Shown: positions 5,141 to 12,744 of the stretch, one piece after another | How the letters are laid out: each line of letters begins with the position of its first letter | Numbering within the stretch: position 1 is the stretch's first letter | Program-made: the position numbers and the translations under genes | The notes under the pieces: model-generated | Database searches by the model: none | Told to the model about the DNA's origin: nothing | What the model saw: the letters and a program-made list of their open reading frames with translations, nothing else | Source: Anaerolineaceae bacterium | GTDB taxonomy: Bacteria > Chloroflexota > Anaerolineae > Aggregatilineales > Phototrophicaceae | DNA length: 64,000 bases | Assembly (NCBI GenBank): GCA_026708325.1 | Contig: JAPOVC010000024.1 | Span: forward strand, 78,282 to 142,281 | Reading direction: 5' to 3'

Positions 5141-6004
5141 TTAGGCGCTATCGAAAACGCGGGCGATGGCGGCGTTGAGGAAGCCGATATTGTGCGGCAG
5201 GGCCTCATCGACCGGGCGGGCGGCGCTGAAGTCCTCAATGCCCAGCCAGCCCTCGTAGCCGGCCCGCTTCAGGGCGCTGAAGAGCGCGTCCCAGTCGACC
5301 ACGCCGTCTTCCAGCGGCGACCACTCCGCCTGCCAGACTCCGCCGTCTTCCGGCGCGGCGTAGCTGGCGTTCTTGATGTGAACGTGGGCCAGCCAGGGGC
5401 CGAGCACCTGAAAGCCGAGATCGTAGTGTTCGTAGCCTTCGCGGGCCATGTTGCCGGCATCGTGCAGGACACCGATGAAGTCGGGGTCGAAGGGAGCGAC
5501 GAGGCGCTGCGCCAGCGAGGCGCTGCAGGTGATGGTGCCGTGGTGCAGTTCGACGATGGCGCGCACATTGTACTGCCGGGCCAGCTCCTGACAGCCCTCG
5601 AGGAAGCGCGAGGCGCGGGCGAAACTGTCGGCGTACGAAAGGCCGTCAGCGTCGGGCCAGCGGCCGGGGTTGACCCGGATGTTGCGCGCGCCGCAGGTCT
5701 GCGCGAAGCGCATGGCGCGCTCGGTGTTTTCCAGGTCGCCGACGTCGATGTAAGTGCCGAGGCCGGGGATGATCAGGCCATGGGCGGCGGCGACGTCGCG
5801 GGCCCGAATGGCGCTCTCCTCATTGAGCGGCAGCGTGCAGTGGTTGGCGCCCCAGTAGGCGAGCCGCCCGGCAGAGCCACTGGGCCTGCTTTCATCGCTG
5901 ACGCGCCACTCGACTCCGGCGTAGCCGTGACGCTGGAGCGCGGCCGCGCCTTCCTCGGGCGTGAGTTCCGGCAGCATGACGGTGAAGACTGATATGTTGA
6001 ACAC
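5141..6004 (-). CDS. Sugar phosphate isomerase/epimerase (hydroxypyruvate-isomerase-like)
   Basis: 287-residue TIM-barrel protein, MFNISVFTVMLPELTPEEGAAALQ. Recognisable are IVELHHGTI, FIGVLHDAGNMAREG, LAHVHIKNA and WLGIEDFS, the usual metal-ligand strands of the family. Translation starts at a GTG (6004) with AAGGAGA placed about seven bases upstream. It follows the SDR genes with a 28-bp gap and is probably in their operon. It is not close to the epimerase at 3050. The substrate is unknown. Confidence 0.87.
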   Translation of the reverse strand: MFNISVFTVMLPELTPEEGAAALQRHGYAGVEWRVSDESRPSGSAGRLAYWGANHCTLPLNEESAIRARDVAAAHGLIIPGLGTYIDVGDLENTERAMRFAQTCGARNIRVNPGRWPDADGLSYADSFARASRFLEGCQELARQYNVRAIVELHHGTITCSASLAQRLVAPFDPDFIGVLHDAGNMAREGYEHYDLGFQVLGPWLAHVHIKNASYAAPEDGGVWQAEWSPLEDGVVDWDALFSALKRAGYEGWLGIEDFSAARPVDEALPHNIGFLNAAIARVFDSA

Positions 6005-6032
6005 GGGTGTCTCCTTTCAGGCGCGGCCTGGT

Positions 6033-6860
6033 TCAACCGAAAAGCAGGGATTGCGCGCCGTCGATATAGATGACCTCGCCGGTGACGTGGGCGGCCATGT
6101 CCGAGACGAGGAAGAGTACGACGCGGGCGACCTGCTCCGGCGTGGCCGGCGCGCCGTCAGTCAGCGGGACATTGCCGGCGGGCGCCTGCAAAAGATAGCG
6201 AAGCCCCTGACGGCCACGATGCAGCGTGTTTTCCGAAATGTTGGTCGTGACACTGCCGGGGCAGATGACGTTGACGCGAATGCGATCGCGCGCCAGCTCG
6301 ATGGCCAGCATCTTGCCGAGGGCCAGCTGGGCGGCCTTGGAGGCAGCATAGACGGAAGCGCCGCAATTGCTGTACATCCTCGTGCCATTGACGGAGGAGG
6401 TGATGACGATGGCGCCACCCCTTTCACGCAAATGCGGCAGCGCAGCGTTGATGCTGAGGAAGGTGCCCTTGAGGTTGATATCCATGGTCTGGTCGTACTC
6501 GTCGGGCGTGATGTTGTCGACGGCGGCCCAGACGCCGTTGATGCCGGCATTGGCGAAAAGGATGTCAAGGCGGCCGAAGCGCCCCGTGAGTTGCCTGACG
6601 GCGGCGTTCAGGGCGGCGGGGTCGCGCACGTCGGCCTGAAGGGCCATGGCACCGGGGCCGGCGGCGTCCACTTCGGCGGCGGCCGCGTCGAGCCTGTCGG
6701 GGTTGAAGTCCAGCAGACCGACGCGCGCGCCTTCCTGCGCAAACTTCAGCGCCGCCCCGCGGCCAATGCCGGAAGCGCCGCCGGTGACCAGCGCCACTTT
6801 CCCGTCCAGGGGGACGGGAGCCCTTCCGCTCAGTCGCGGGAGTCCTTCATCAAGCTGCAT
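6033..6860 (-). CDS. SDR family oxidoreductase, copy 1 (repeat-derived N-terminus)
   Basis: 275-residue short-chain dehydrogenase with TGGASGIG cofactor loop, NAG, catalytic serine (VITSSVNG) and YAASK active site, so predicted active. The start chosen is the ATG at 6860 (MQLDEGLPRL). The first 20 residues are unusual: EGLPRLSGRAPVPLD is the translation of a palindromic repeat module inserted between the expected MQLD and GKVALVTG. Copy 3 has no such insert. It is the third of three tandem SDR paralogues on this strand, 99 bp after copy 2, followed by an epimerase. Likely role: oxidation of a sugar or polyol hydroxyl. Confidence 0.9.
   Translation of the reverse strand: MQLDEGLPRLSGRAPVPLDGKVALVTGGASGIGRGAALKFAQEGARVGLLDFNPDRLDAAAAEVDAAGPGAMALQADVRDPAALNAAVRQLTGRFGRLDILFANAGINGVWAAVDNITPDEYDQTMDINLKGTFLSINAALPHLRERGGAIVITSSVNGTRMYSNCGASVYAASKAAQLALGKMLAIELARDRIRVNVICPGSVTTNISENTLHRGRQGLRYLLQAPAGNVPLTDGAPATPEQVARVVLFLVSDMAAHVTGEVIYIDGAQSLLFG
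6798..6848 (-). repeat. Double hairpin repeat module inside the SDR copy 1 coding sequence
   Basis: On the plus strand this reads TTTCCCG-TCCAGGGGGA-CGGGAGCCC directly followed by TTCCG-CTCAGT-CGCGGGAGTCC. It is the same two-hairpin arrangement found in the intergenic copies at 32461 and 34321. It is in frame with the SDR and supplies most of its new N-terminus. Confidence 0.9.
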
Positions 6861-6959
6861 GACACGCCCTTTCCCGTCTGCGTATCCGGCGCGCCCCATC
6901 ATAGGGCGTATACGGTGGGTCTGCCAGGTGCGCTGTCAGGCGGCCGCCGGGGCCGGAAA

Positions 6960-7784
6960 TCAACCGCGGAACATGGACTGGGCCCCGTCGACGACCAAGG
7001 CCTCGCCGGTGACGTAGCTGGCCTCGTCCGAGACGAGAAAGAACACGGCGCTGGCGATCTGGTCCGGCGTGGCCGGCGCGCCGTCGGTCAGGGGGACGTC
7101 GCCGCTGTGACGGACGGGGTAGCGCAGCTTCTCCATGTTGCGGTAGCTGATATGGTCCAGAATGTTGGTGCTGACGTTGCCCGGGCAGACGATGTTGACG
7201 CGGATGCGCTCATGCGCCAGCTCGAAGGCCAGCATCTTGCCGAAGGCCAGCTGGGCGGCCTTGGTGCTGGCATACACCGATGCGCCGACGCTGCTGAACA
7301 TCGCATTCCCCGTGACGGAGGCGGTGATGACGATCGACCCGCCCTGCACCCGCAGGGCCGGCAGGGCCGCCTGGACGCTGAGAAAGGTGCCCCGCACGTT
7401 GATGCTGAAGAGTTGGTCGAATTCGTCGGGCCGGATGTCCCCGACGGGCGCCCAGAGGCCGGCGATGCCGGCATTGGCGAAGAGTATGTCAAGGCGGCCA
7501 AAGCGCTCCACCAGCTGCCCAACGGCGGCGTGCATGGCGGCGGGGTCGCGCACGTCGGCGAGCAGCGAAACCCCGCCGGGGCCGACAGCATTAACCTCGG
7601 CCGTGGCCTCATCAAGGGTGTCGGGGTTGAAGTCCAGCAGGCCGACCCGCGCGCCTTCCCGCGCGAAGCGGAGGGCCGTGGCGCGGCCGATACCGGAGGC
7701 GGCGCCGGTGATCAGGGCGACCTTGCCGTCCAGGGGGACGGGAGCCCTTCCGCTCACTCGCGGGAGTCCTTCGTCAGGCAGCAT
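6960..7784 (-). CDS. SDR family oxidoreductase, copy 2 (repeat-derived N-terminus)
   Basis: 274 residues, closely similar to its neighbours. TGAASGIG, NAG, VITASVTG and YASTK are intact. It starts MLPDEGLPRVSGRAPVPLDGKVAL: as in copy 1, a 15-residue stretch encoded by an inserted hairpin repeat separates the initiator region from the GKVAL strand. No Shine-Dalgarno of note precedes the ATG (GGAAAA lies just before it). It lies between copies 1 and 3 with gaps of 99 and 51 bp, so the three are probably cotranscribed. Confidence 0.9.
   Translation of the reverse strand: MLPDEGLPRVSGRAPVPLDGKVALITGAASGIGRATALRFAREGARVGLLDFNPDTLDEATAEVNAVGPGGVSLLADVRDPAAMHAAVGQLVERFGRLDILFANAGIAGLWAPVGDIRPDEFDQLFSINVRGTFLSVQAALPALRVQGGSIVITASVTGNAMFSSVGASVYASTKAAQLAFGKMLAFELAHERIRVNIVCPGNVSTNILDHISYRNMEKLRYPVRHSGDVPLTDGAPATPDQIASAVFFLVSDEASYVTGEALVVDGAQSMFRG
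7726..7774 (-). repeat. Double hairpin repeat module inside the SDR copy 2 coding sequence
   Basis: Same arrangement as at 6798, with one change in the second loop (CTCACTCG for CTCAGTCG). Because it is shared at the same codon position by copies 1 and 2 and absent from copy 3, it either inserted before their duplication or was spread by gene conversion. Confidence 0.9.
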
Positions 7785-7835
7785 GGCGTTTTCCTTCCCG
7801 TACAGGCCACACGACAGCCGTTTCCCAGGACACGG

Positions 7836-8615
7836 TCAGCCGCGCAGGATGGAGACGGCGCCGTCGACGACAACGACCTCGCCGGTGACGTAGCTGGCCA
7901 TGTCGGAGACGAGGAAGAGCACGACGCTGGCGATCTGGTCCGGCGTGGCCGCTTCCCCGTCTGTGAGCGGAACGCCGCCGGTGTGCTCGATCGGGTAGCG
8001 CAGTTTCTCCAGGTTGCGGTAGGTGATGTGGTCGAGAATGTTGGTGTTGACGCCGCCCGGACAGACGACGTTGACGCGGATGCGGTCCTGCGCCAGCTCG
8101 AAGGCCAGCATCTTGCCAAATGCCAGCACGGCGGCTCTGGTGGTGGCATAGACCGATGCGCCGCTGTCGGAAAACATGTGTGTTCCTGTCACCGAAGAAG
8201 TGATGACGATCGACCCGCCCTGCGCCCGCAGGGCCGGCAGGGCCGCCTGGACGCTGAGGAAGGTACCCTTGACGTTGACGCTGATGAGGTGATCGAACTC
8301 GTCGGGCGTAATGTCCTCCACCGGTGCCCAGACGCCGGGGATGCCGGCGTTGGCGAAAAGGATGTCGAGCTGGCCGTAACGGTCGGTGAGTTGCGCGACG
8401 GCGGCGGACAGGGCGGCCGGGTGGCGCAGGTCGGCGAGCAATGAAACCGCGCCGGGGCCGACAGCATCCACCTCGGCCGTGGCCTCGTCGAGGGTGTCGG
8501 GGTTGACGTCCAGCAGGCCGACGCGCGCGCCTTCGCGGGCGAAACGGAGGGCCGTGGCCCGGCCGATGCCGGAGGCGGCGCCGGTGACCAGGGCGACTTT
8601 TCCTTCAAGCAGCAT
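7836..8615 (-). CDS. SDR family oxidoreductase, copy 3 (YxxxR active site)
   Basis: 259 residues from the ATG at 8615 (MLLEGKVALVTGAASGIG), which has AAGG eight bases upstream and matches the usual SDR start; a longer reading to 8660 is unlikely. The glycine-rich loop, NAG and VITSSVTG serine are present, but the active-site motif reads YATTR: the catalytic lysine of YxxxK is an arginine (AGA codon). Copies 1 and 2 keep the lysine. It may be impaired or altered in activity. It is the first SDR of the tandem set and follows a Gfo/Idh/MocA gene and a double repeat. Confidence 0.9.
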   Translation of the reverse strand: MLLEGKVALVTGAASGIGRATALRFAREGARVGLLDVNPDTLDEATAEVDAVGPGAVSLLADLRHPAALSAAVAQLTDRYGQLDILFANAGIPGVWAPVEDITPDEFDHLISVNVKGTFLSVQAALPALRAQGGSIVITSSVTGTHMFSDSGASVYATTRAAVLAFGKMLAFELAQDRIRVNVVCPGGVNTNILDHITYRNLEKLRYPIEHTGGVPLTDGEAATPDQIASVVLFLVSDMASYVTGEVVVVDGAVSILRG

Positions 8616-8652
8616 GTTGCAAGCCTTTCTGTGCAGGGATGATGGTTTGGCA

Positions 8653-8735
8653 GCCCTCACCCCCTGCCTCTTTCCCGCTGAGTCGCGGAAGCCCTGTCCC
8701 GCTCAGTCGCGGGAGCCCTTCCTCAGGGAAAGGGG
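8653..8735 (+). repeat. Composite repeat with two successive hairpin insertions
   Basis: GCCCTCACCCC start, module TTTCCCG-CTGAGTCG-CGGAAGCCC, then a second module GTCCCG-CTCAGTCG-CGGGAGCCC, then the CCTCAGGGAAAGGGG arm. It shows that modules can stack at one site. It lies between the dehydrogenase at 8758 and SDR copy 3. Confidence 0.88.
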
Positions 8736-8757: not shown

Positions 8758-10071
8758 TCATGGTAACTGCAACAGGTCGTCGACGTTCACGGGCCGGCGG
8801 GTGGCGATGGAGTGGTTGGCGGCGATGCCGGTGAGGATGGAGGCCGCGCCGTCGAGGTGACTGGCGCCGCGACCTAGCGGATCCTGGGGCGGACCGGGCG
8901 AGAAGAGTTGCTCAAGCATGAGCGGGTCGGCGCCGCCGTGGCCGCCCCTGGCGACGGGAATATCCGCCGTCCAGGAGTCGGCGAAGTGCGGAAATACGCG
9001 CAGTTCGGTGTGGCGGTAGGCGCCCTTGCTGGCGGCGATATGACGCTCCTCGGCCTCCGCCGAGGTCTTGCTGGCGGCGGTCTTGGTGCTCTCGACGACG
9101 TCAAGTTCGAGGCGGCCGCGCGTGCCGCTGATGGCGACACGATAGCCCTCCCAGGGGGCGTAGGCGACGAGGCTGTAGGCCAACAGGGCGCCGCTGCGAT
9201 AGCGGACGGTGACGCAGCAGGTGTCCTCGATGGTGACCGGCTCGCCGAAGACGTTGCGATCGCGCCGGTAGCCGGTCTCGGCCTCCGCGTCGAGGTAGAG
9301 ACTGGTCAGCGCCGGGTCCTGATCGAGGAAGAGGGCGAAGGGGTCGTCACGGGCGGCGGGCTCGCCCGTGTAACGGTCGTAGCTGTAGTACTCGCCGCGC
9401 GCGGCGGCGTTGGCCGCACCGTAGAACTTGAGGTCGCCGATGGCGGAGACCTGCTGCGGCCAGGAGTCGATCCACCAGTTGACGAGGTCGAAATGGTGGG
9501 TGGCCTTGTGGACGAGCAGGCCGCCGGAATTGTGTTTTTCGCGATGCCAGCGACGGAAATAGTCAGCGCCATGGCTGGTATCCAGCAGCCAGTTCAGGGA
9601 AACGTGCAGCGGACGGCCGATGGTGCCCGCGGCGATGAGTTCGCGCAGGCGTGAGTGGGCCGGGGCGTAACGGTAGTTGAAGGTGACGCGCAGCTGGCGG
9701 CCGGTCGCCGCGATGGTATCGAAGATTGCGCGGGCCTTGCCGTCGTCGATGGTCATGGGCTTTTCGCAGATGACGTCGCAGCCGAGTTGCATGGCGCGGA
9801 TGATGTAGAGGTGGTGCGCGGAGTCCATGGTGGCGACGATGACGACGTCGGGACGCGTTTCGGCGACCATGCGATCGAAATCGTCGGCGTGGTAGGCGGG
9901 AACCGGCGGGTGCCCGTAAAGCTCCTGCAGGCGTCCGTTGTGCCAGGCCATGCGAACGCGGCTGAGGTCGCAGAGTGCGACAAGGCGGTTGTCGGCGCTC
10001 CAGGTTTCGCAGAGGGCCTGGACGTACATACCGGCGCGGCCGCCGGTGCCGACGATGGCGTGACGTTTCAT
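8758..10071 (-). CDS. Gfo/Idh/MocA family oxidoreductase
   Basis: 437-residue dehydrogenase, longer than the 3889 copy. [16 protein letters not shown] is the dinucleotide loop, [12 protein letters not shown] the second strand, CEKPMTI the catalytic lysine motif, and [20 protein letters not shown] the substrate-side histidine motif. The extra length lies in the C-terminal half (residues about 220-330), as in Gfo/Idh/MocA members acting on larger glycosides. A GGGAG ribosome site precedes the ATG. It probably leads the SDR/epimerase set on this strand. Confidence 0.9.
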
Positions 10072-10204
10072 GGAGGTCTCCCGGATGCGGATGGCGGGGC
10101 AGACTCTACACCGTCGACACGCTCACCCCAAACCCGCCACCCCGCCCCGGGAACCGAAGCCTGTTCAGGCAGAGCGACAATTTTGCCTGACAGATATCAA
10201 TGTG

Positions 10205-12217
10205 TCAGTAAGTCAGAGACGTGAAGATCTGCGGTGAGTCGCGGGTGGGCAGGACTTCCCCGGAGGCGAGCGCGTAGAGGTTATCGAGCGCCTGACGCGC
10301 CGAGGTGACCAGGGGCTCGCAGGGGCGGTGACAAATATCCAGCAAGCCGCTGTTCCAGGCCTCGCCCTGCAGATCGCCGAGCGCGGAACGATCGTAGAAT
10401 GAGTCGTAGTGCAGGCCGACACAGCCGGGAAGGGCAGCGGCGTTTTCGAGGCAGGCGCGCAGGGCCGGGCCGCGAGCGTCCTGTTGCGCCACGCGCGGGC
10501 CAGGACCGCTGGCAGGCAGCCCGGCGTCGAGGGCGCCCACGCTCCAGGCGCTGATCAAAACGGGCAGGCCCTGTTCCGCCTGAATGCGTTCCGCGTCGAG
10601 CGAGGAGACCAGGGCGCTGTCGCAACTCATACTGAAGACGTCGCTGCCGTGACGGACCTGGCGGCACCAGTCGGGCGGCAGTCCTTGCCAGCGCATGCCC
10701 AGATTGAGATGGTGGGGGTCGACGCTGCGGCAGGTCGTGGTGAGAGTGTTGAAGTAATGGTTGAGCAGGAGCACGCTGAAGTCGGCCAGGTCCCTGCGGG
10801 CGGCAGGGCCCAGCGCTGCGGACCAGCGGCCGGCGCGAATGTCATCGAAGCTGACGGTCATGTGCCAGGCCTTGCCGAGCGAACGCTCGTCACCGTGGCG
10901 CTCGCGCAGAAAGTCCAGCAGGGCGCGGCGGCTGTGGCAGGTCTCGGTGTTGTAAAGCATGCCGGCGGCCGGCGGCTCGGCGCCCAGACTCCAGGCCGGG
11001 GTGTCCATGAGGAAGTAGCCGAGCAGGCTGCGGTCCTCGCGAGAGGCGAGCAATTGCGAGGCAAGCAGGCGGGCATCCTCGACGAATTGGGGGTCGAAGA
11101 CGTCGGGCAGGTCTCGCCAGATGAAAGCGGCCCGGGGCCAGGCGAGGGGTTGCAGGGTGCGCGTCCAGGGTATGCCGGGAAAGCGACCAGGTCCGCCTTC
11201 GGAATGATGGCCGATGGTGTTGAATCCGGCGCGATGCAGCCAGGAGCGGGCGATCGTCGTCCAGTGACGATGCCAGGTGTTGGGCCCAAAGGCGCGCATG
11301 AGGTTGGCCTGCAGAAAGTCAACCAGTTCCTGGTCCTCGCGCTGGCGACGGACGGCGGCGAATTCGAAATCCGTTGAGTCCGGAGTCCAGTCGAGCGCGC
11401 CCTGCATGTGTGAGATGCAGGTCTCGACCGAGGCGCGCAGGCCATTGAGACCGGCCGACCAGAAGGCGTGGCCGTCAGGCGCGACCAGCCACCAGCGCTG
11501 GCCGTCGTGGTGGGTGCGAAACCAGCCGCTGGCCTCGAATCCGCCGCGCCGCCACGCGCCCTGTTCCGTGAAATCGCGCGGCCAGGCCCGGGTCTGGGCC
11601 GAGAGGAGCTGGTCCTGCAGGCGCTGGCTGACTTCCGCCTGTTGCTCGCTCTTGCCGCTCCAGGAGCGCAGGGCGGTCTGGCCCAGGGCATCCAGCAGGG
11701 CGCCACGCGGCAATACGGGCTGATCGAGCGCGAGGGGCTCGACAGCGCTGGCGACCAGAGGCGTCATGCACCAGCGCGTGGGCTGCTCGCCGCGCGTGGC
11801 CACCAGCAGGCGCAGTCGGCTCACGGAGCCGGGTTGCACGGCATCGCCCTTGACAGCGGGTTTGAGCCAGGCGCCTTCACGTGGCAGGCGCGCCCGGCCA
11901 AGCGAAAGCGCATCAAGCGGCAAACGCAGACGCGCGGAGGCCTGGGGCAGCAGCGCGAACTGTAGCTGAAAGCGGGGTCCGTCCCCTTCTTCCTGAAGTT
12001 CGAGCAGAAAAACCACGCTTTCGTCGCCATCGAGCAGCATGTCGGCGGTGAGCCAGAGGGCCTCGCCGAGAGCGCCGGGCCGGACGTGGTATTCCAGACC
12101 GTCGTTGACGGCGCCGGCGGCGTACCAGGTGGCATCGAAGACGGGCGCCGTGCCGCTCCCGGCGTTGATACCGCCGAGCAGTTCAACGGGGTTGATGGTA
12201 AATGGCAGGCTCGCCAT
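10205..12217 (-). CDS. GH50 (beta-agarase)-like protein, both catalytic glutamates apparently replaced
   Basis: 670 residues from the ATG at 12217, which has a perfect GGAGGA site. Residues about 230-256 (GWFRTHHDGQRWWLVAPDGH, then AFWSAG) and 500-511 (HHLNLGMRWQGL) follow the GH50/agarase-type barrel pattern. Where the acid/base NE is expected (GYF-DNE-W in my recollection of the family) this protein has YFLMDTPAW (401-409). Where the nucleophile is expected (GEFHFGALD-G) it has SAWSVGALDAG (556-566), with alanine at 557. The N-terminal about 200 residues look like a beta-sandwich module. No signal peptide is seen. It may bind rather than cut glycans. Fold assignment is moderate; loss of activity is inference. 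Confidence 0.6.
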   Translation of the reverse strand: MASLPFTINPVELLGGINAGSGTAPVFDATWYAAGAVNDGLEYHVRPGALGEALWLTADMLLDGDESVVFLLELQEEGDGPRFQLQFALLPQASARLRLPLDALSLGRARLPREGAWLKPAVKGDAVQPGSVSRLRLLVATRGEQPTRWCMTPLVASAVEPLALDQPVLPRGALLDALGQTALRSWSGKSEQQAEVSQRLQDQLLSAQTRAWPRDFTEQGAWRRGGFEASGWFRTHHDGQRWWLVAPDGHAFWSAGLNGLRASVETCISHMQGALDWTPDSTDFEFAAVRRQREDQELVDFLQANLMRAFGPNTWHRHWTTIARSWLHRAGFNTIGHHSEGGPGRFPGIPWTRTLQPLAWPRAAFIWRDLPDVFDPQFVEDARLLASQLLASREDRSLLGYFLMDTPAWSLGAEPPAAGMLYNTETCHSRRALLDFLRERHGDERSLGKAWHMTVSFDDIRAGRWSAALGPAARRDLADFSVLLLNHYFNTLTTTCRSVDPHHLNLGMRWQGLPPDWCRQVRHGSDVFSMSCDSALVSSLDAERIQAEQGLPVLISAWSVGALDAGLPASGPGPRVAQQDARGPALRACLENAAALPGCVGLHYDSFYDRSALGDLQGEAWNSGLLDICHRPCEPLVTSARQALDNLYALASGEVLPTRDSPQIFTSLTY

Positions 12218-12426
12218 GCGTCCTCCGGGCAGTTGCGCGGAAGTATAGCGAATGGTGACAGGGGACCTCCCTGCACCGGGTTGCTGCCGCGGCGGCGACG
12301 GGCCTACAAGCAACAGAGTCATCAATGACAGCGGTCACAAGGGCTGCCGTAAATTGGTGCCGGGCGGCCATGGCCGCTGCCCCGCCAAATCGCTAGACTG
12401 GCGCAACCCCGCGAATGGAGGCCGGT

Positions 12427-12744
12427 ATGTTCTTTGAATTGCGCTCTTATCCCGTGCTCCCGGGCAAGATGGAGGCCTGGGTCAGGTTCATGGACGAGGA
12501 AATCATCCCTTATCAGTTGTCAAAGGGGATGTGCATTCCCGCCAGTTTTGTCGATGAGGAAAATTACCGTTACGTGTGGTTCCGGCGATTCGCAGACGAG
12601 GCCGAGCGGGACCGGCAATACGCGGCGGTCTACGAAGAAGAGATCTGGACCGGGGACATGCGACCGCGGGTAGGGGAATACATCGACCACGACGGCGTCA
12701 CGGTCAGTATCCTGCGGGCGACGCCGCGCTCATTCATGCGTTAG
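12427..12744 (+). CDS. NIPSNAP family protein
   Basis: 105 residues starting MFFELRSYPVLPGKMEAWVRFMDEEIIP, the conserved ELRxY...PGK opening of the NIPSNAP dimeric alpha/beta-barrel family, with YVWFRRFADEAERDRQ as second half-motif. A GGAGG site lies seven bases before the ATG at 12427, which is preferred to the ATG at 12415. The molecular role of bacterial NIPSNAPs is not established. It sits just ahead of two MFS transporters. Confidence 0.85.
   Translation: MFFELRSYPVLPGKMEAWVRFMDEEIIPYQLSKGMCIPASFVDEENYRYVWFRRFADEAERDRQYAAVYEEEIWTGDMRPRVGEYIDHDGVTVSILRATPRSFMR

Follow-up and report, generated by a model that had tools for sequence, protein, structure and literature searches.

The gene at window:10205-12217:-, where the window is the whole stretch of 64,000 nucleotides analysed here, raises the question of what a protein built like a GH50 agarase does once the residues expected to cut a glycosidic bond have been replaced. 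It offers a testable case of a glycoside hydrolase whose gene and genomic neighbours have persisted after the loss of the catalytic pair and of most of the active site, and both intact relatives and a possible intermediate exist for comparison. Homology-based annotation could mislabel such a protein as an agarase. A limited literature search returned nothing on GH50 pseudoenzymes, nor on GH50 in Chloroflexi or Anaerolineae.

An intact gene of GH50 descent

We translated the reading frame from ATG to stop and obtained 670 residues with 0 internal stops (Table 1). The first-pass annotation, made from the letters alone, had described an intact gene without decay and with an ideal ribosome site. 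Both points stand: the frame is open and shows a dN/dS of 0.11–0.14 like its neighbours, and GGAGG precedes the ATG with a gap of 4 nt. The start is supported by (i) the homology of relatives, which begins near the same methionine, (ii) this GGAGG and (iii) a leader that is near-identical from TTCGCTATACTTC to the ATG in the other two species of the genus, the DNA farther upstream having diverged. The TATACT of the leader was called −10-like by eye and is absent from the list of the consensus promoter scan. No signal peptide is seen by eye at the N-terminus (MASLPFTINP), which suggests a cytosolic protein.

Table 1 Features of the locus. Aga50D residues carry the numbering of the printed chain
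Feature	Position	Strand	Remark
GH50-like protein, 670 aa	10205..12217	-	N-terminal beta-rich part and C-terminal (beta/alpha)8 barrel
Conserved leader of the GH50-like gene	12222..12247	-	TATACT 12247-12242, GGAGG 12226-12222
Asp405, position of Aga50D Asn533	11003..11005	-	alignment; Asp also in L005
Thr406, acid/base position (Aga50D Glu534)	11000..11002	-	gap-free alignment
Asp533, for Tyr of 17/17 intact homologues, just after strand beta6	10619..10621	-	alignment
Ala557, nucleophile position (Aga50D Glu695)	10547..10549	-	gap-free alignment
Asp605, position of Aga50D Phe742, end of strand beta8	10403..10405	-	alignment
Asp615, position of Aga50D Arg752	10373..10375	-	alignment
Glu619, position of Aga50D Glu757, sole kept of six named residues	10361..10363	-	alignment
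Gfo/Idh/MocA oxidoreductase, 437 aa, with EKP motif	8758..10071	-	
Short-chain dehydrogenase	7836..8660	-	
Short-chain dehydrogenase	6960..7784	-	
Short-chain dehydrogenase	6033..6902	-	
Xylose-isomerase-like TIM barrel (PF01261)	5141..6004	-	
Second Gfo/Idh/MocA oxidoreductase, 370 aa	3889..5001	-	

Pfam and NCBIfam scans assign no family to the protein, and three intact homologues put through them (L010, L012, L014) likewise gave no match above cut-off. Its homology to characterised GH50 enzymes is nevertheless evident in both sequence and fold. A phmmer search of the PDB with the single protein finds the GH50 agarase 6xj9 at 1.4e-24, followed by 5z6p and 4bq2, and a profile built from the protein and ten relatives detects GH50 agarases with E-values of 6.3e-89 to 2.2e-86, and BpGH50 (5t3b) with 4.2e-27. 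We performed structure prediction with AlphaFold2 from the 11-row alignment (mean pLDDT 81.8, pTM 0.81). The best Foldseek matches of the model are GH50 structures (E 2e-43 and weaker), and VIA-align superposes it on them at Z 38.9 to 38.0 with an rmsd of ~8 Å over 573–620 residues, which may perhaps reflect a domain shift; for BpGH50 the fit is 2.8 Å across 378 residues (Z 28.3). When modelled, the intact homologue from Anaerolinea thermolimosa compares similarly with the GH50 structures (Z 39.5 to 35.7). The superposition that the first-pass annotation had proposed as a check thus places the protein among GH50 agarases, and the kinship is far beyond chance: the 670-aa protein is derived from a GH50-type glycoside hydrolase.

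The exo-beta-agarase Aga50D of Saccharophagus degradans (PDB 4bq2-4bq5) shares the two-part architecture with the (beta/alpha)8 barrel, is matched by the profile over positions 128-652 and retains its Glu757 equivalent in the window protein; it differs in that identity is ~20%, no signal peptide is seen by eye in the window protein, and five of its active-site residues are all replaced there. The motifs GQRWWLVAPDGHAFWSAG (239-256), HLNLGMRW (503-510), GALDAG (561-566), VGLHYDSFYD (600-609), MDT (404-406) and SAW (556-558) were located in the translation. All motifs that had been quoted as a preserved barrel pattern are therefore present, but the HYD within the C-terminal one does not belong to that pattern, since its Asp605 replaces the Phe of 16/17 intact relatives (L005 has Ala) and is itself an active-site replacement.

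Replacement of the active site

An excerpt of PMC11079163 names Glu695 of Aga50D as nucleophile, Glu534 as proton donor and Asn533, Phe742, Arg752 and Glu757 as further active-site residues; according to its introduction, the catalytic residues of GH50 had not been identified and were inferred from clan GH-A. In GH50 models described in an excerpt of PMC8551122, the carboxylate pair is spaced by ~5–5.4 Å. The chains of 4bq4 and 4bq5 carry Gln at the position of Glu534 in 4bq2, as would be expected of an inactivated mutant. Equivalences between Aga50D and the window protein were taken from alignments.

Five of the six named residues are replaced in the window protein, three of them by Asp. The absence of both catalytic glutamates had been noticed at first reading and is borne out by gap-free alignment; the replacements go beyond those two and extend to the positions of Asn533, Phe742 and Arg752, so that one of the four further site residues is kept (Glu619). 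With respect to clan GH-A, the barrel is present and the glutamates at the ends of strands 4 and 7 are both absent. A shifted alignment that would hide other catalytic acids was rejected: G400, Y401, F402, P407 and W409 on the acid/base side and W558, G561 and D564 on the nucleophile side are invariant or nearly so and align without gaps, and no other acid falls in either catalytic column. Based on these alignments, GH50 retaining hydrolysis looks lost.

The changes also reach residues outside the named six. Trp338 and Trp341 of the NWSDW motif of Anaerolineae are replaced, the residue aligned to Phe605 of the relatives is lost, and the His559 column, His in 17/17 intact homologues, has changed. 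Four Asp are new (405, 533, 605, 615), at or beside pocket positions by alignment; the model is of low confidence around Asp533 and Asp615 (ten-residue blocks with pLDDT 52 and 51), so that the pocket placement of these two rests on alignment.

Continued cleavage by a residual or substrate-assisted glycosidase, in which Asp405 would act as acid and the nucleophile would be replaced by water or by a group of the substrate, is improbable. Asp405 does adjoin the old acid/base position, but the strand of Ala557 offers no carboxylate at its flanking columns (Ser556, Trp558), and the Arg752 and Phe742 positions have been replaced together with His559 and Tyr533, columns constant in 17/17 intact homologues. 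Hydrolysis could also have passed to another intact copy elsewhere in this genome, but none was found: the protein search of the genome (G000, which may be incomplete at 96%) gave one match, and the A1 profile search added one weak stretch on contig C27 (E 4e-4). A plasmid search by protein returned four records, all distant, the best-ranked at 31% identity.

A lectin that has merely lost its catalytic acids is expected to retain its sugar-contact residues, as in chitinase-like lectins. Here these residues are lost along with the acids, and the pocket has probably changed its ligand. A remodelled pocket, with four new Asp, fits better than a plain dead-glycosidase lectin. Of the earlier proposal that selection maintains a non-hydrolytic role such as glycan binding or sensing, purifying selection is upheld and glycan binding or sensing is no more than a candidate role; a simple lectin built on the old site is disfavoured by the loss at the Asn533, Phe742 and Arg752 positions and of the NWSDW tryptophans.

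Distribution among relatives

The genus comprises three genomes, and the gene is present in 3/3, each time with MDTP and SAW. By contrast, both glutamates are kept in all 17 close homologues that cover both columns (L004-L007, L010-L013, L032-L040), so that the alignment of homologues suggested at first reading finds the replacements fixed in the genus and absent from these close homologues. Both are also kept in the seven next-layer proteins that align in one stretch (L014, L015, L017, L043, L056 and two in L042); L046, aligned piecewise, has Glu at both places and is kept apart from this count. The alignment listing holds 51 open frames, and partial or duplicate rows were left out of the counts: L057 overlaps L039 and L059 is the L049 protein; L041 covers the acid/base column only, and L047 and L050-L052 the acid/base motif only; L044 and L023 cover only the nucleophile column (Glu and Asp, respectively); L016, L018, L045 and L053 cover neither; and fragments of L042 and L056 were set aside. 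L042 and L056 themselves (G742, contig C484) are tandem short GH50-like genes with intact glutamates in one Anaerolineae genome.

In the tree, a long stem (0.9) leads to the genus, which lies within a clade of its own family. Three GH50-like Anaerolineae proteins, all uncharacterised (L010 from A. thermolimosa, L028 in G028, L029 in G010), are 45–51% identical to the window protein and, unlike it, possess both catalytic glutamates. The last of these (L005, which is L029:9070-11079) is placed as sister of the genus with modest support (88/60); it reads MDEP, with both glutamates kept, Asp at 405 and Ala at 605. L005 is a possible intermediate, compatible with an Asn-to-Asp change having come first, although its residues could also have arisen by convergence. 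A letter make-up test marked L001-L003, L017 and L024 as unusual.

Loss of the glutamates is not unique to the genus within the wider GH50-related sequences, since both are absent in at least eight distant Chloroflexota rows (L019, L020, L022, L024, L025, L048, L049, L058). The first seven form a distant group with x-D-[C/V/I]-P at the acid/base motif, which puts Asp at the Asn533 column, and Asp ([G/A]D) at the nucleophile column. L020 and L024 match 4bq4 at 5e-21 and 2e-14, and no Pfam family was assigned to the members scanned (L020, L024, L049). On their motifs, these seven may represent an Asp/Asp lineage of their own, with a spread over more genera than the variant seen in the window. 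L058 and L047 read YYGYG or YYGY at the acid/base motif, an apparent further loss of Glu, and the nucleophile column of L058 is Asp.

Selection and the place of change

We determined dN/dS (NG86) for the three species pairs of the genus and obtained 0.135, 0.110 and 0.121 for the GH50-like gene, within the range of ten nearby genes (0.069 to 0.237); the 109-aa NIPSNAP gene (0.106, 0.040, 0.033) was left out of this range, its dS being near saturation in two pairs. The gene has the open frame and the purifying selection, despite the lost catalytic residues, that are expected of a pseudoenzyme, a homologue kept by selection without catalytic activity. A pseudogene or an assembly error is ruled out by the agreement of the three genomes together with the low dN/dS. 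Along the protein, residues 501-600 with Asp533 and Ala557 give 0.072 and 0.030; residues 401-500 with Asp405 and Thr406 (0.145 and 0.170) and residues 601-670 with Asp605 and Asp615 (0.140 and 0.112) are not specially constrained.

We then compared the genus with the intact rows, from which L005, although part of the 17/17 count, was left out because it already differs at Asn533. The 13 intact Anaerolineae rows share 197 invariant columns, and at 47 of these all three genus rows differ; when three distant rows are added (16 intact), 95 columns are invariant, of which 14 differ in the window protein and 13 in all three species. Over the same 197 columns, L005, L011, L012 and L013 differ at 27, 42, 63 and 73, so that what is unusual in the genus is where the changes lie and not how many there are. 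Within the barrel portion, changes fall on 9/21 invariant columns at strand ends versus 5/65 elsewhere in the 16-row set (Fisher p 0.0006), and on 15/36 versus 25/125 in the 13-row set (p 0.009). The site set comprises eight strand ends on the model, from two residues before to five after, with the end at 335 set by hand; as it was drawn up once the motif losses were known, these p-values are only indicative.

Within the genus, no special conservation of the new site was found (7/64 site positions vary versus 50/376 elsewhere in the barrel, p 0.39), in a comparison of three species at 89–91% identity that has little power. Relaxation by faster evolution of the whole protein was rejected, as no general speed-up is seen against the Gfo partner (ratio 0.53/0.34 on the window branch; 0.23/0.10 and 0.28/0.09 on the branches of relatives). 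A decaying relic that persists as a passenger next to metabolic genes would account for changes concentrated in the old active site and for site variation within the genus that resembles the rest of the barrel. It is nonetheless very improbable: the frame is open in 3/3 species, dN/dS is ~0.12 as in the neighbouring metabolic genes, the leader is conserved, and overall the protein evolves no faster relative to its Gfo partner.

A rival reading is a rebuilt enzyme, in which an Asp-rich pocket would bind a metal, or an Asp pair would carry out another reaction on the neighbours' sugar, as an inverting hydrolase, lyase, isomerase or epimerase. New chemistry remains a candidate because of the four new Asp, three of them at named active-site positions of Aga50D and the fourth at a column that is Tyr in 17/17 intact homologues. 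Asp405 may predate the loss of the glutamates, as the MDEP of L005 suggests, and the distant Chloroflexota group, too, lacks Glu534 and carries Asp in both the Asn533 and the Glu695 column. Yet the nucleophile column is Asp in that group and Ala in the window protein, the model is weak around two of the new Asp, and within the genus no special conservation of the site is seen; we regard a rebuilt enzyme as possible, tentatively so. More doubtful is the fuller proposal of a GH50 barrel whose Asp-rich pocket serves other chemistry as part of an oxidative sugar pathway, perhaps by way of an L005-like Asn-to-Asp step and paralleled by the distant group.

Genomic neighbourhood

The GH50-like gene heads a conserved run of oxidoreductase genes, the downstream homologues lying within 20 kb in both relatives of the genus; upstream are a divergent NIPSNAP-like gene and two MFS transporter genes. 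The association extends to genomes in which the glutamates are intact. In G028 and G010, a homologue of the 437-aa oxidoreductase with 67% identity lies one gene from the intact GH50-like gene, the gene in between being arabinofuranosidase-like in G028 and an alpha/beta hydrolase in G010. G010, in which both glutamates are intact, has much of the window's neighbourhood: a few kilobases on, it carries a short-chain dehydrogenase (55% identical to the window's nearest), an aldo/keto reductase-like gene (34%), an isomerase-like gene (64%) and a second Gfo protein (54%). Another Gfo-like group, 26–27% identical to the window's and named by similarity only, occurs near the intact genes of L063, L064 and L068. 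Overall, a same-strand Gfo-like gene is nearby in 5 of the 15 intact contexts inspected (of 17 close homologues); in L011 it is on the opposite strand, and several of the inspected contigs are short.

The GH50-like gene and the 437-aa oxidoreductase gene are separated by 133 bp. A promoter-like site (CTGACA, 17 nt, CAAAAT) lies at 10208-10180 on the minus strand, at the end of the GH50-like gene and upstream of the oxidoreductase gene; it is the one site found in the scan of 9900-12500, where 0.1 was expected. Given this gap and this site, co-transcription of the two genes can only be called putative.

Proposed role

We favour, at a probability of about one half, a non-hydrolytic protein that binds a sugar or intermediate of the pathway and is kept beside the sugar-type oxidoreductase genes. 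Such a GH50-derived protein would have lost the GH50 retaining mechanism and would have been maintained for another role. Its old pocket would have been remodelled, with Asp405, Asp533, Asp605 and Asp615 brought in and the residues aligned to Trp338, Trp341 and Phe605 lost, so as to bind a different polar ligand without cutting it. The ligand would most likely be a substrate or intermediate of the adjacent Gfo/Idh/MocA oxidoreductases and short-chain dehydrogenases, with which the protein might partner, or for which it might present or sequester the ligand. This reading draws on the glutamate pair replaced in 3/3 genus genomes and kept in 17/17 close homologues, on the clustering at strand ends, on the low dN/dS and on the kept neighbours. 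Against it count the site, which is not extra conserved in the genus, the intact relatives, which are uncharacterised, and the same-strand Gfo-like gene found in only a third of the intact contexts; the data would also be accounted for by a new enzymatic activity. The most fitting label for the protein is that of a pseudoenzyme, or a repurposed protein, of GH50 descent.

Heparanase 2 is placed in clan GH-A. As reported in an excerpt of PMC12406646, it is a glycosidase relative that lacks catalytic activity and has been kept; it differs from the window protein in belonging to another family and another organism. For the neighbouring enzymes, excerpts of PMC10628242 and PMC7676230 describe oxidation followed by elimination as a known route to glycoside breakage; that the window's oxidoreductase genes break glycosides in this way is only a suggestion.

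Further observations at the locus

The three short-chain dehydrogenase genes at 6033-8660 (minus strand) stand in tandem, and the stretch of G010 that was read has one (46–54% identity), which suggests a local duplication. An open frame of 827 aa runs antisense to these three genes on the plus strand (window 5961-8444) and is probably a by-product of high GC.
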